Positions 24,747 through 31,176 of a stretch of DNA of 37,374 nt are shown piece after piece. Positions within the stretch are counted from its first letter, which is position 1. Every line of letters starts with the position of its first letter. Source of the stretch: Acidimicrobiales bacterium (GTDB taxonomy: Bacteria > Actinomycetota > Acidimicrobiia > Acidimicrobiales > SZUA-35); NCBI GenBank assembly GCA_020628065.1, contig JAHDFR010000031.1:1-37374 (forward strand), written 5' to 3'. A program made the position numbers and the translations under genes. The notes under the pieces were generated by a model. The model was not told the origin of the DNA, ran no database searches, and was given only the letters and a program-made list of their open reading frames with translations.

Positions 24747-24883
24747 AACGTTCTTGATCGTACTCGGCTGTAGCGCCGTTGGCCGTGCGGTGGGTGCCAA
24801 GGAGAACAGGTGAGACAAATCGGAGACGGTGGCGAAGGGAGGTGATGTGGGAAAACGGTTCTCGCCCCCGGGGTCGTGTCGGG

Positions 24884-24889
24884 TACCGT
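24884..24889 (+). promoter_or_regulatory. Candidate -10 element of the MoxR gene (leaderless)
   Basis: TACCGT fits TANNNT and ends 7 nt before ATG 24897, which lacks a ribosome binding site. The divergent region 24747-24896 also holds TACGAT on the minus strand (24757-24762), 10 nt before the AAA ATPase start. Confidence 0.4.
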
Positions 24890-24896
24890 ATGGGCC

Positions 24897-25799
24897 ATGA
24901 CTTACCGTTTCGAATCGGTTGATGCCGTCCGCGAGGGCCTGGAGAGTGTCGACTACCTGGCGGACGACTCGATTGCCGGCATAGCCTATTTGGCCGATCG
25001 GCTGGGCAAGCCGGTGCTCGTGGAGGGGCCTGCTGGTACCGGCAAGACACAGCTCGCTAAATCTGTGGCAGAAATGAGCGGTGCCCGCCTCATCCGGCTC
25101 CAGTGCTATGAGGGCATCGACGAATCCAAAGCGCTGTATGAGTGGAACTACAAGAAGCAGCTGCTGCGCATCCAGGTGGAAACCGGCGACGGCACCGGGG
25201 AGTGGAGCGACATCGAGGGCGACATCTTCTCCGACGAGTTCCTTTTGACCCGGCCGCTGCTTGAAGCCATCACCGCCGACGACCCGGTTGTTCTCCTGAT
25301 CGACGAGGTCGACAGAGTCGAGTTGGAGACCGAAGCGCTGCTATTGGAGATTCTGTCCGACTATCAGGTGTCGATACCCGAGCTCGGCACTATTGAGGCC
25401 AAACAGATCCCGTTGGTGTTCCTGACCTCCAACAACACCAGGGAGCTGTCGGAAGCGCTGAAGCGTCGCTGCCTGTTCCTCCACCTCGACTACCCGTCGA
25501 TCGAGCGGGAAAAAGAAATCGTGCTTACCAAGGTCCCGGACATCAGTGAACAGCTGGCCGATCAGGTGTCGCGAATCGTACGGTCGGTCCGTCAGCTTGA
25601 ACTCAAGAAACACCCATCAATTTCGGAGACGTTGGACTGGGCCCGGACGTTGGTTCTTCTCGGTATCGAGAACATCGACGAGGAAGACGCCGTGAACACG
25701 GTGCACATCTTGTTGAAGTATCGCTCCGACATCGAGAAGGCCATGAAGGACTTCACCGCCAACTCCGGTGCTCACTTCGAAACACCGGCCGGCGGATAA
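24897..25799 (+). CDS. MoxR-family AAA ATPase
   Basis: AAA+ chaperone-like ATPase of 300 residues. Walker A GPAGTGKT (44-51), Walker B VVLLIDEVDR (131-140) and SNNTRELSEALKRRC (sensor 1 and arginine finger region) are clear. Members of this branch partner with VWA proteins to insert metals or assemble complexes, for example CoxD with CoxE for CO dehydrogenase. The VWA partner follows 15 nt downstream, but no CO dehydrogenase or other obvious client gene is in the window. An in-frame GTG at 24876 would add seven residues; ATG 24897 is favoured by the TANNNT box. Confidence 0.9.
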   Translation: MTYRFESVDAVREGLESVDYLADDSIAGIAYLADRLGKPVLVEGPAGTGKTQLAKSVAEMSGARLIRLQCYEGIDESKALYEWNYKKQLLRIQVETGDGTGEWSDIEGDIFSDEFLLTRPLLEAITADDPVVLLIDEVDRVELETEALLLEILSDYQVSIPELGTIEAKQIPLVFLTSNNTRELSEALKRRCLFLHLDYPSIEREKEIVLTKVPDISEQLADQVSRIVRSVRQLELKKHPSISETLDWARTLVLLGIENIDEEDAVNTVHILLKYRSDIEKAMKDFTANSGAHFETPAGG

Positions 25800-25814: not shown

Positions 25815-27314
25815 ATGACCGCATCGGTGGACGACTCAACAACCTCAGGCCCACCCCCCGCCTCGGACCCGTTGTTTGACCTGCTTGAGGGATTTGTCCA
25901 TGAGCTGCGCAACGCCGGCCTACCGGTGTCGTTGTCTGAGAACATCGACGCTGCTGATGCTGTTCGCCATATTCCCATAGAGGACCGCAACGCCTTCAAG
26001 TACGCCTTGGCGGCCACCCTGGTAAAACACCAGGCTCACTGGAAGACGTTTGAAACGCTCTTCGATGTCTACTTCTCCCTGCGAGGGTCGGAGTACGTCA
26101 TTGATCCCGATGCTCAGGACCCGTTCGAAGACATGGACTTCGACCCTGAGCTTGCTCAACAACAGCAGGGCGAAGGCGGTCAAGGCTCGGGCGACGGCTT
26201 GTCACCGGAAGAGCTTGCCGAATTGCTGTATCAGGCCCTGATGCGGGGGGATGACACGCTGATGCGAGCCATCGCCCGTCAAGCGGTAAAGCGGTACGCC
26301 GGTATGGAGCCGGGTCGTCCGGTTGGTGGAACCTATTACCTGTATCGGACGCTTCGGAACCTGGATCTTGACGGTGTTTTGGAACGGCTGATGGAGCAGG
26401 CTCGGGGCCAGGCCGACCAGCAAGGTCAACCGCTCACGCCGTTTAAGGAACGCCTGGAGCAGGACGAGTACGAGACTCGAATCGACAAGCTGCGCAAGGA
26501 AGTCGAGGCCGAGATTAGACGGCGTCTGGTGGCCGACAGGGGAGCGGAGGCGATGGCCAAGACGCTCCGCAAACCGCTGCCGGAAGACGTCGACTTCATG
26601 CACGCCAGTCGAGAAGAGATGACCATGCTTCGGCGGGCCATCTACCCACTAACCCGGAAGTTGGCTGTGCGACTTGCCCGCAAACGGCGACACAAACGCA
26701 AGGGGCCGCTCGATTTCCGCAACACCGTTCGTCACTCGTTGAGCTACGGCGGTGTGCCGGCCGAGCCGAAGTTCAAACACCCGAGGCCGGCCAAGCCTGA
26801 GATTTTTGTTATCGCTGACATTTCCGGCTCGGTGGCCGCCTTCGCCCGGTTCACCCTGCATCTGGTGTACGCCATCTCCAGCCAGTTCAGTCGGGTCCGA
26901 TCCTTTGTGTTCATCGACGGTTTGGACGAGGTCACTTCGTTCTTCGAAGGGGCCGACGACATCACTGAGGCCATCCACCGGGTCAACACTGAGGCGGACG
27001 TGGTTTGGGTCGACGGGCATTCTGACTATGGGCACGCTTTTGAGATCTTCTGGGATCGCTACGGCAAGGAAGTCGGGCCGAAGACAACAGTTTTGATCCT
27101 TGGCGACGCCCGCAACAACTACCACGCCTCCCAGTCATGGATCATCAAAGAGATCCAACACAAAGCCCGGAAGCTGTTCTGGCTGAACCCCGAACCGAAG
27201 GCCTATTGGAACACCGGTGACTCCATCGTCGGTGAGTACGCCACCTACTGCGATGGCACCTTTGAGGTCCGGAACCTTCGTCAACTTGAACGTTTCGTCG
27301 ACAATCTCGTCTGA
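25815..27314 (+). CDS. CoxE-like VWA-domain protein, partner of MoxR
   Basis: Protein of 499 residues with a helical N-terminal half and a C-terminal von Willebrand A domain. The metal-ion-dependent adhesion site appears as DISGS (Asp335, Ser337, Ser339), followed by the second-half motif VLILGDARNNY. A Gln/Gly-rich linker lies at about 115-130. There is no signal peptide or membrane segment, so it should be cytoplasmic. MoxR-VWA pairs act together on client complexes; the client here is unknown. The gene is 15 nt after moxR and surely co-transcribed. Confidence 0.88.
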   Translation: MTASVDDSTTSGPPPASDPLFDLLEGFVHELRNAGLPVSLSENIDAADAVRHIPIEDRNAFKYALAATLVKHQAHWKTFETLFDVYFSLRGSEYVIDPDAQDPFEDMDFDPELAQQQQGEGGQGSGDGLSPEELAELLYQALMRGDDTLMRAIARQAVKRYAGMEPGRPVGGTYYLYRTLRNLDLDGVLERLMEQARGQADQQGQPLTPFKERLEQDEYETRIDKLRKEVEAEIRRRLVADRGAEAMAKTLRKPLPEDVDFMHASREEMTMLRRAIYPLTRKLAVRLARKRRHKRKGPLDFRNTVRHSLSYGGVPAEPKFKHPRPAKPEIFVIADISGSVAAFARFTLHLVYAISSQFSRVRSFVFIDGLDEVTSFFEGADDITEAIHRVNTEADVVWVDGHSDYGHAFEIFWDRYGKEVGPKTTVLILGDARNNYHASQSWIIKEIQHKARKLFWLNPEPKAYWNTGDSIVGEYATYCDGTFEVRNLRQLERFVDNLV

Positions 27315-27370: not shown

Positions 27371-27397
27371 GAAATAGCTCTGAGCTGGGGCTATTTC
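27371..27397. other. Inverted repeat downstream of the VWA gene
   Basis: GAAATAGC (27371-27378) and GCTATTTC (27390-27397) form a perfect 8-bp stem with an 11-nt loop. No T tract follows on either strand. A second small dyad, GGCCAT-TC-ATGGCC, lies at 27355-27368. The region 27315-27473 holds no gene. Possible roles are an end of the MoxR-VWA mRNA or an operator for the next gene. Confidence 0.4.
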
Positions 27398-27460
27398 GCC
27401 GGTCAAAATTTGCCCAGTTGAAATACCGAGCGCTTCCATCGTGGCCCCCTAACGCTTGAT

Positions 27461-27466
27461 TACGCT
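27461..27466 (+). promoter_or_regulatory. Candidate -10 element of the sigma-like fusion gene
   Basis: TACGCT fits TANNNT and ends 7 nt before GTG 27474, again the leaderless spacing. No clear -35 hexamer is visible. Confidence 0.35.
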
Positions 27467-27473
27467 CGGTCGG

Positions 27474-28814
27474 GTGGGTACAACAATCGAAGATCGTCTG
27501 ATCCTTGGCGACGTCTCGGTACTTGAGGATATGTACGGTGGAAGCGGCAAGTTGCTGTACGCCATCGCCGGTGTTCTCGACCCTGACAACAAGGATCGGA
27601 TTACCGCCGCCGTCTTCTCAGACGCTTGGGACAATCGTCGAGACTTCGACCCCTCGCGGGGGAGTGTCCGAGCTTGGCTGGTCCGTCAGGCCCGGCTTTC
27701 CTACCCGATGGGACCTGAGTCTGATCGACGGGTTGATGAGCTTGTCGTGGCCGCCACGGTGTCTGACATGGATGACGTTCAACGCCAGATTCTCGTTGAA
27801 GGTTCGTCCGCCAGCGGGCGGACCGAGGATCTGGCCGAACACCTCGATCTGCCGGTAGGCACGGTTGAGGGTCACTTGCGGCGCGGCATTCGCACGTTGC
27901 AGTCTGAGCTGGTTGACGGGCGTTTGGATGGCGATGACTCCCGCCTGGCCGACATCATTCGCTCGGGTAGGTTGGAGTCGGATCTGGCTTCGCCACCGGA
28001 CACCGTCTGGCGCCAGATCATGGAGATGACCGGGGCTGATGAGACGGTTCCGATGGAGGCATCTGCTCTTGAGCCTGAACCCGTCGGGGATCTTGATATC
28101 GACGACGAGCTGGGTGAACTCGACGGGCAGGACAAGGACGAGCTGGATGCGCTGGCTGACGGCGAGTCCGACGACTCCGGCGGACCAGGCACCGGTAGGG
28201 GGCTGGTGGATGAGTTCTCCGCCACAGACTTCCCCGGTCAGACGCCGTTGCAACCGGAGATGACAGTCGCCGAGTCTGATGTCGAGTCCGAATCGGAGCT
28301 TGAGTCGGAGTCTGACCACTCACACTCCGAAGTCGAGAATGAATCGGTCCTCGCCAACAGCGATGAGCCCGAGATTCCTGTCTGGAGCGATCTTGACATC
28401 GACGCCGACTCCGAAGCCGATGCGGCGGGTGAGGCCACGGAAACGGATGCCGATCTTGTTGACCCGGTAGACGTAGACGGTGAGGTTGACGACGACGGCG
28501 TGCCGTATGTGTTGAGTGGGCGGTACCGTCCCGGCGTCGATGACGATCCGTATGTCGACCGGCCAGCCAGTGGCGGTTCGGTGGTCAGCGAATCAAGCGC
28601 GTCGGAGAGCACTGATGTTGGCGACGTGTTGGCCGCTGTCCAAGACGACCCTGACGAGAGCGCTCAGAGACGGGCGGAAGCCGAAGCCATCTATTTCAAC
28701 GACGACGAAGACGCCGCAAAGGGAACAGGTCTGGCGGCGTTACCGTGGCCGAGAATTATTGTGTTGGCCGTCGCCGCTTTCATCCTGCTGGGCATCGTAC
28801 TGACGCTCAGGTAG
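27474..28814 (+). CDS. ECF-sigma-like protein with acidic linker and C-terminal membrane anchor
   Basis: Protein of 446 residues with an unusual architecture. Residues about 14-75 resemble ECF sigma region 2 (AAVFSDAWDNRRDFDPSRGS, VRAWLVRQAR). Residues about 95-145 resemble region 4 with a helix-turn-helix (DLAEHLDLPVGTVEGHLRRG). A segment with SPPDTVWRQIMEM (near residue 183) recalls the PP-x-x-x-W motif common in actinobacterial anti-sigma factors. Then come about 220 residues of Asp/Glu/Ser-rich disordered linker, and one hydrophobic helix (IIVLAVAAFILLGIVL) almost at the C-terminus, so the protein is tail-anchored with its head in the cytoplasm. The start is GTG 27474; an in-frame TTG lies at 27456. 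Function as a membrane-held sigma factor is inference. Confidence 0.75.
   Translation: MGTTIEDRLILGDVSVLEDMYGGSGKLLYAIAGVLDPDNKDRITAAVFSDAWDNRRDFDPSRGSVRAWLVRQARLSYPMGPESDRRVDELVVAATVSDMDDVQRQILVEGSSASGRTEDLAEHLDLPVGTVEGHLRRGIRTLQSELVDGRLDGDDSRLADIIRSGRLESDLASPPDTVWRQIMEMTGADETVPMEASALEPEPVGDLDIDDELGELDGQDKDELDALADGESDDSGGPGTGRGLVDEFSATDFPGQTPLQPEMTVAESDVESESELESESDHSHSEVENESVLANSDEPEIPVWSDLDIDADSEADAAGEATETDADLVDPVDVDGEVDDDGVPYVLSGRYRPGVDDDPYVDRPASGGSVVSESSASESTDVGDVLAAVQDDPDESAQRRAEAEAIYFNDDEDAAKGTGLAALPWPRIIVLAVAAFILLGIVLTLR
28272..28320 (+). repeat. Imperfect hexanucleotide repeat coding Glu-Ser runs
   Basis: Degenerate GAGTCN/GAATCG units, with some interruptions, encode the ESDVESESELESESD stretch of the acidic linker. 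Such low-complexity DNA can vary in length by slippage. It lies within the sigma-like fusion gene. Confidence 0.55.
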
Positions 28815-30336: not shown

Positions 30337-31176
30337 CTAGGCGGCGTCGAAGTCGCTCATGACGTCGCCGGCCTGGTCGCGAACGGCACTGACAGCTCGC
30401 TTAACAAGCCGTCGGGCGGCCTCGGCTGTAACTCCCAGCTCCTCGCCAACTTCACGGTAGCTGCGCTTGCGGCCGTCATTGAGGCCGAATCGCTGCTCCA
30501 CTGCGTACTTGGCGCGGGGGTCGAGGACCTCCAGGAGACCGGTCACCATGGTTTCCTCGGCTCGTGCCATAACCTCGATTTCGGGGCCGGGGTTGGCGTC
30601 GGGGAGAAGGTCGACGAGCTCGTTGGAGTCGTCGTCACCGATGGTGCGGTCAAGAGAGGTGGGGGTGGTCAACCGATGAAGGCGTGCATGCTCGTCATCC
30701 AGCTCGTCACCGTCGCCCGATACCTGGCGGAGGGCCGCCCGAAGGCTGGCCGACCGGTCGCCGGGGAGACGAACGAGGCTGGCCTTTTGGTCAAGGGCCC
30801 GGCCGATCGCCTGGCGAATCCAGAACGTGGCATAGGTGGAGAATTTGAAGCCTTTCCGCCAGTCGAACTTGTCGACGGCGTGCTCAAGGCCAAGGTTCCC
30901 TTCCTGAATGAGGTCGAGAAGTTCCATTGAAGGCGGCAGGGGGTAACGTCGTGCGACGCTCACCACCAGACGCAGGTTGGCTCGGATGAATCGATCTTTT
31001 GCTCGAGCTGCCGCACGAACTGCCCGACGGTTGGCCACCGAATTGTCTCCGGCGTCGATCATTTCCTGGGCCTCGCGGCCTTTCTCGATGATCTGACTCA
31101 ACTCGCGCTCCTCGTCCGCCGTCAAGAGGGGGACGAGTCCGATTTCGTTTAGATATTGTCCTACTGAATCACTCAT
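30337..31176 (-). CDS. Group 2 RNA polymerase sigma-70 factor
   Basis: Sigma factor of 279 residues lacking region 1.1. It has region 1.2 (DSVGQYLNEIGLVPLLTADEE), region 2 (ANLRLVVSVARRY, LLDLIQEGNLGLEHAVDKFD, FSTYATFWIRQAIGRAL), region 3 and region 4 (EVGEELGVTAEAARRLVKRA). The -35 recognition helix reads TAEAARRLVK where primary sigma factors have TRERIRQIE, so promoter choice may differ. The start ATG has AAGAAG about 10 nt upstream. No anti-sigma gene adjoins. It ends with a good terminator and is divergent from nadD across a region with a CRP-type palindrome. Confidence 0.9.
   Translation of the reverse strand: MSDSVGQYLNEIGLVPLLTADEERELSQIIEKGREAQEMIDAGDNSVANRRAVRAAARAKDRFIRANLRLVVSVARRYPLPPSMELLDLIQEGNLGLEHAVDKFDWRKGFKFSTYATFWIRQAIGRALDQKASLVRLPGDRSASLRAALRQVSGDGDELDDEHARLHRLTTPTSLDRTIGDDDSNELVDLLPDANPGPEIEVMARAEETMVTGLLEVLDPRAKYAVEQRFGLNDGRKRSYREVGEELGVTAEAARRLVKRAVSAVRDQAGDVMSDFDAA

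Follow-up and report, generated by a model that had tools for sequence, protein, structure and literature searches.

A tail-anchored fusion of a degenerate SigK-like sigma factor with an anti-sigma remnant in a genus of Acidimicrobiales, and its possible repurposing

The closest described systems are the SigK/RskA-type pairs of Actinobacteria (4NQW), in which the ECF sigma factor and its anti-sigma factor are separate proteins. RskA-type anti-sigma factors have an N-terminus of the type DVMxILRxGP...PPxxVWxxI and one membrane helix, with RskA_C on the outside. Fused sigma/anti-sigma factors are already known as well, and IutY (ECF243), ECF48, ECF52 (SCO4117) and ECF53 combine a sigma head, an anti-sigma part and a membrane helix within a single chain (PMC8999054, PMC5826349). 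In IutY and SCO4117 the sigma head is active, and ECF48, ECF52 and ECF53 have been described with a zinc-finger anti-sigma part. A degenerate ECF domain is known separately from PhyR of the alphaproteobacterial general stress response, in which the parts of the domain that would bind promoter and polymerase are degenerate (PMC8103513) while the domain is nonetheless conserved, and an intact sigma/anti-sigma pair is present alongside. Here we describe a gene in which the degenerate head is combined with the fusion. In the literature searched, no description was found of a degenerate ECF domain and a fused anti-sigma part in a tail-anchored, sensor-less chain, and the term "pseudo-sigma" returned nothing usable.

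The gene lies at 27474..28814 on the plus strand of the window, which is the whole 37,374-nt stretch of DNA that was analysed, and encodes 446 aa from a GTG start. Its translation consists of a sigma2/sigma4-like head, a PPDTVW element, an acidic linker of approximately 234 aa and a single terminal hydrophobic helix. The initial annotation had read the ORF as a sigma-like N-terminus, an anti-sigma-like element, a linker and a C-terminal helix, and all of these were present. Products of 287-461 aa with the same layout are encoded in seven genomes, the G150 copy being interrupted by a contig end. The GTG at 27474 was favoured as the start; a housekeeping-type -10 element (TACGCT, of the form TANNNT; 27461..27466, plus strand) lies 7 nt ahead of it and is kept in all three closest orthologs. 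A TTG at 27456 was set aside as the start because it is located ahead of this conserved element.

On the same strand upstream are genes for a MoxR-type AAA ATPase (24876..25799) and a CoxE-type VWA protein (25815..27314), both in conserved synteny, and the VWA protein was found in 40 of the 41 relatives searched. Against the NCBIfam models MadB and MadC, the MoxR and VWA proteins scored below the cut-offs (313 of 475 and 159 of 600 bits, respectively). An inverted repeat (GAAATAGC...GCTATTTC, 27371-27397) between the VWA gene and the fused gene is perhaps a terminator, and the two closest orthologs carry differing hairpin-like sequences at its position. A class II DAHP synthase gene lies downstream on the other strand, as does a gene for a short sigma factor of the RpoD family. 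The DAHP synthase gene is located 13 bases past the fused-gene stop, so that no remnant of the RskA_C region is left. The RpoD/SigA-family gene (30337-31176, minus strand) encodes 279 aa with clear regions 1.2, 2 and 4 and a weak region 3; it is 90-100% identical family-wide, which is far above the conservation of its neighbours.

The interval between the VWA and DAHP synthase genes was compared among the relatives. In four genomes of the genus and in most other genera of the family, it holds two overlapping genes, for an ECF sigma factor of approximately 200 aa and a one-membrane-helix protein of approximately 200-250 aa, and RskA_C was matched on the second gene in both pairs tested (40 and 38 bits). 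Of the 12 genomes in the genus, seven (G000, G154, G156, G152, G153, G155 and G150) have a single fused gene, always directly 3' of the VWA gene. In the twelfth genome, G157, approximately 14 kb separate the two-gene pair (L146, G157:C3) from MoxR-VWA, and the VWA gene is directly followed by other genes. When the fusion profile was run over 397 genomes of the order, matches spanning the anti-sigma part were confined to the genus; a single-protein search of the order matched chiefly ordinary ECF factors. The planctomycete Fimbriiglobus has an ORF similar to RskA-type anti-sigma factors downstream of an ECF sigma gene (L041:4608-5980). From the two-gene pairs at the same locus and the anti-sigma profile match given below, it follows that the fused gene is a sigma/anti-sigma fusion without RskA_C. 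The relatives, which show the fusion of a two-gene pair, thus bear out the earlier description of a sigma part, an anti-sigma element and a membrane tether in one chain. We regard it as near certain that a SigK-like ECF sigma gene and an RskA-type anti-sigma gene were fused and that losses followed. The SigK/RskA-type pair is the direct ancestor in fold and, in sister species, in locus, and the ancestral two-gene state includes RskA_C on the partner and a sigma-type promoter, GCATCC-N16/17-CGWA. Compared with such pairs, the fusion is one chain and has lost the sensor, region 2.4, the linker, the contact residues and its own promoter.

The head comprises a sigma2-like domain (residues 1-78, 27474..27707, plus strand) and a sigma4-like domain (residues 79-152, 27708..27929, plus strand). 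Its homology to sigma factors, checked with HMMs, was weak but real. The window head scored 17.6 bits for Sigma70_r2 and 14.6 bits for r4_2, both under the Pfam cut-off; the window protein matched NCBIfam SigK with an E of 3e-9, and both Pfam sigma domains were matched by all seven orthologous heads. Furthermore, the family profile retrieved solved ECF sigma factors, SigK (4NQW) included, with an E of 1e-14. Profiles and an AF2 model of residues 1-200 (pLDDT 82, pTM 0.78), which was built on a shallow alignment of four rows, placed both the sigma2 and the sigma4 fold in one chain, and in Foldseek the two parts of the model fitted solved ECF domains with an rmsd of 2.6 and 2.4 Å, respectively. 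Since the whole-chain rmsd was large, the separate sigma2 and sigma4 matches alone were used, and the placement of the domains relative to each other was not taken from them. The full-length AF2 model, made with three rows, was poor (pLDDT 41) and failed on the head; just its helix and disorder were used, cautiously.

The initial annotation had named a lack of polymerase-contact residues in the head as evidence against its reading, and such residues were largely missing: the region-2.2 Asp, the region-2.4 Asp with its stretch and the region-4.2 Lys are absent from all seven fusions. Of these residues, the last two occur in each of the 19 tabulated two-gene or paralogous sigmas, and the region-2.2 Asp occurs in 18, the remaining one having Glu. 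The region-2.2 Asp and Gln, which we take to be the equivalents of sigma70 D403 and Q406, binding the polymerase clamp, belong to the pattern D..Q[QE].F. The D of this pattern is replaced in 7/7 fusions and both Q in the window clade, and the changes in the window protein are D to R and QQ to AA. In the recognition helix of the window protein, the Lys of GTVK is replaced by Glu. Moreover, region 2.4 of the fusions is a truncated helix from which the Asp/Arg stretch is gone, and at the junction RLSYPMGPESDRRVD (27693..27737, plus strand) about 22 residues are absent that in the relatives make up region 2.4 and the sigma2-sigma4 linker. The AW-to-VDR stretch, which connects the region-2 Trp with region 4, has 20-28 residues in the fusions compared to 40-48 in the relatives, a total shortening over region 2.4 and the linker of approximately 15-22 residues, and the connector in the AF2 model is approximately four residues long. 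As the linker of ECF holoenzymes threads the active site and the RNA exit channel (PMC8103513), a connector of the modelled length can hardly pass through the polymerase in that way. Very probably, the fused protein is not an initiating sigma factor.

The head is followed by the remnant of an anti-sigma domain (residues 153-186, 27930..28031, plus strand), made of short helices and including PPDTVW (27993-28010). Since PPDTVW aligns with the anti-sigma N-termini of the relatives, it is the anti-sigma start, which reads DVMAILRSGPLEAPTERPSDDVWNAI in one relative and LADIIRSGRLESDLASPPDTVWRQI in the window protein. A profile of the relatives' N-termini scored 12.1 bits on the window tail, a value reached by 0 of 1000 shuffles, and the resemblance of PPDTVW to anti-sigma motifs noted earlier was thus confirmed. 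The same profile gave 30-35 bits on the G155 and G150 fusion tails, and G153 alone was not significant. In the AF2 model from the four-row alignment, the anti-sigma helix at residues 176-186 was confident. Judged on the window protein taken alone, the remnant would be a weak assignment. The fusion shares with RskA-type factors the type of N-terminus and the one membrane helix; however, it lacks RskA_C, for which Pfam gave no match in the window protein, and its remnant is joined behind its own sigma factor. The fused protein differs from the known fusions in its degenerate head, in lacking a Cys/His zinc motif and in having no part beyond the membrane.

The linker (28056..28742, plus strand) is acidic and largely disordered, as judged from composition, pN/pS and the shallow AF2 model. 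It was first described as about 220 Asp/Glu/Ser-rich residues; the acidic character stood, and the measured length was 234 aa (31% D/E, 3% K/R, net -64). Two motifs kept among the three closest orthologs, GLVDEFSATDFPGxTPLQPE (residues 243-262, 28200..28259, plus strand) and DDDGVPYVLSGRYRPGVDDDPY (residues 339-360, 28488..28553, plus strand), have a pN/pS of 0.10 each, compared to 0.56-0.69 in the remaining linker. The chain ends in the membrane helix that would form the tail anchor (residues 424-446, 28743..28811, plus strand). Residues 425-444 are helical in the shallow AF2 model, and hydropathy places the hydrophobic helix at residues 428-446, so that it ends at the last residue. In agreement with the initial annotation of a single hydrophobic helix at the extreme C-terminus, nothing follows residue 446, and 0-2 residues lie beyond the helix in all six complete fusions. 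Judged by sequence, the fusions have lost the extracytoplasmic sensing part, and with it any target on which a signal or site-1 protease could act.

The upstream regions were compared in the same way. A TANNNT element at this position was found in 7/7 fusions and in 14 two-gene relatives, and leaderless genes with TANNNT have been described (PMC3898074). A sigma-type motif, GCATC[CT]-N16/17-CG[ATG]A, precedes 14/14 two-gene orthologs as well as 7/7 paralogs, and none of the seven fusions; the GCATCC motif was spotted by eye and then counted, its exact form being chosen after the sequences had been seen. In the two-gene orthologs, TANNNT is nearer the conserved start (6-7 nt ahead) and the sigma-type motif is further off, whereas the fusions have TANNNT alone, in each case 6 or 7 nt before the start, and the seven paralogs the sigma-type motif alone. 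The two-gene relatives L075, L080, L074, L076, L083 and L149-L153 have GCATCC-N16/17-CGAA plus the housekeeping-type -10, and the latter fits a leaderless shorter sigma with a start some tens of residues later. No GGAAC-type ECF promoter was found when sought, and the literature on a SigK CCATCC consensus gave nothing usable. A whole-genome scan with GCATCC-N16-CGTA gave five matches against four in the reversed control, so the regulon could not be defined. The distribution of the motifs suggests that the fusions have lost sigma autoregulation, a predicted housekeeping leaderless promoter being left.

The head dN/dS was 0.03-0.06 in the window clade (approximately 0.03 for sigma2 and 0.04-0.06 for sigma4) and about 0.1 in G155/G150, the overall range of 0.03-0.1 being that of four genome pairs. 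By the same pairwise estimate, that of the linker was approximately 0.2, with dS saturated. The open frame was maintained across a dS near or above 1. The strong purifying selection on the head indicates that the fused gene is not decaying, and the protein, so conserved in its head despite the lost switch and sensor parts, appears to have taken on a new function. It is strongly supported that the head is maintained by purifying selection for a role other than transcription initiation.

In the head tree, the fused heads formed one clade (bootstrap 98) inside the locus orthologs (96), separate from the paralogs; the fused-head branches are long, so attraction is possible in this tree. In the species tree, G153 is separate from the others, although support for this is low. 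All seven fusion genomes have a second SigK-like sigma (identity of at least 60%), which the five others of the genus lack, and none was found in the rest of the family at this threshold. An RskA-like partner lies downstream of the paralog in G156, G152, G153 and G150; in the remaining three fusion genomes no partner was read beside it, in part because of contig ends. Since the paralog tracks the fusions, it appears that no genome of the genus is without an intact pair of the subfamily. Two histories would fit this distribution: the fused copy was replaced and then put to a new use, or it serves as a decoy for the other pair. Paralog and fusion go together in one or two lineages, and their association may reflect shared ancestry or simple functional replacement.

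We propose that the fused protein is a repurposed, tail-anchored pseudo-sigma, housekeeping-expressed and protein-binding, with the intact SigK/RskA-like pair as its most plausible partner, and we give this reading a probability of roughly 0.5. Its history is strongly supported: a SigK-like sigma gene fused with its own anti-sigma gene of the RskA type; the sensor, the region that reads the -10 element, the connection between sigma2 and sigma4, key polymerase contacts and the sigma-dependent promoter were then lost, and the long acidic linker was gained with the C-terminal membrane helix retained. The protein would be produced steadily from the leaderless housekeeping promoter and would sit on the inner membrane face by its tail anchor, with the anti-sigma helix lying against the pseudo-sigma head. 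Most likely, it would affect the SigK/RskA-like pair encoded intact elsewhere in the genome through sigma mimicry or titration, in the manner of PhyR on NepR, and the linker motifs and the anti-sigma helix may tune access to the head. Mimicry of this kind, by analogy with PhyR, is a tentative proposal. PhyR has a receiver domain where the fusion has a membrane tether and the anti-sigma remnant helix (no receiver domain was matched in the window protein with Pfam or NCBIfam), and the RskA remnant fused to the head might block the binding of another anti-sigma factor, which counts against mimicry. That a tail-anchored pseudo-sigma without input and output controls the paralogous pair by mimicry, as a second and independent origin of a PhyR-like system, is doubtful.

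Other explanations were weighed against the repurposed pseudo-sigma. The initial annotation proposed a polymerase- and DNA-binding head released by proteolysis, that is, a genuine membrane-tethered sigma factor like IutY or ECF52. One chain does hold the sigma part, the anti-sigma part and the membrane helix, as in the known fusions; nevertheless, the contact residues, region 2.4, the linker that normally threads the polymerase, the autoregulatory promoter and the extracytoplasmic part are all lost, and we consider this proposal improbable. It is about as improbable that a membrane-held head reads the -35 GCATCC of the paralog through the sigma4 helix-turn-helix alone and competes with the paralogous sigma. 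The sigma4 fold is kept and constrained and GCATCC is present in the paralog promoters, but the recognition-helix Lys is Glu in the window clade and replaced in all fusions. Less unlikely is a membrane adaptor, whose head or conserved linker motifs would recruit the MoxR-VWA ATPase to the membrane. The fused gene has stayed next to VWA in every fusion genome despite its changed function, and short conserved motifs lie within its linker. However, MoxR-VWA occurs across the order with no adjoining sigma gene, the same locus is occupied by the two-gene sigma pair, and a promoter-like element of its own precedes the fused gene; of the earlier suggestion that MoxR-VWA acts on the fused protein, the adjacency held and nothing beyond it. 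Finally, the fused copy of a pair whose work the intact paralog took over could simply be drifting. Such decay would agree with the match between paralog and fusions and with the fast-evolving linker, but the low dN/dS of the head in four genome pairs, the constrained linker motifs and the long-kept open frame make it very improbable.

The fused sigma/anti-sigma factors characterised so far keep a working head; here, both signalling ends are gone and what lies between them is strongly conserved. One genus contains the ancestral as well as the derived state, and since the two-gene state survives at the same locus in sister species, the route away from a gene switch can be read step by step and tested. 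The finding raises the question of which partner holds a promoter-blind sigma fold under selection. If mimicry is true, sigma mimicry would have arisen a second time, outside the Alphaproteobacteria.
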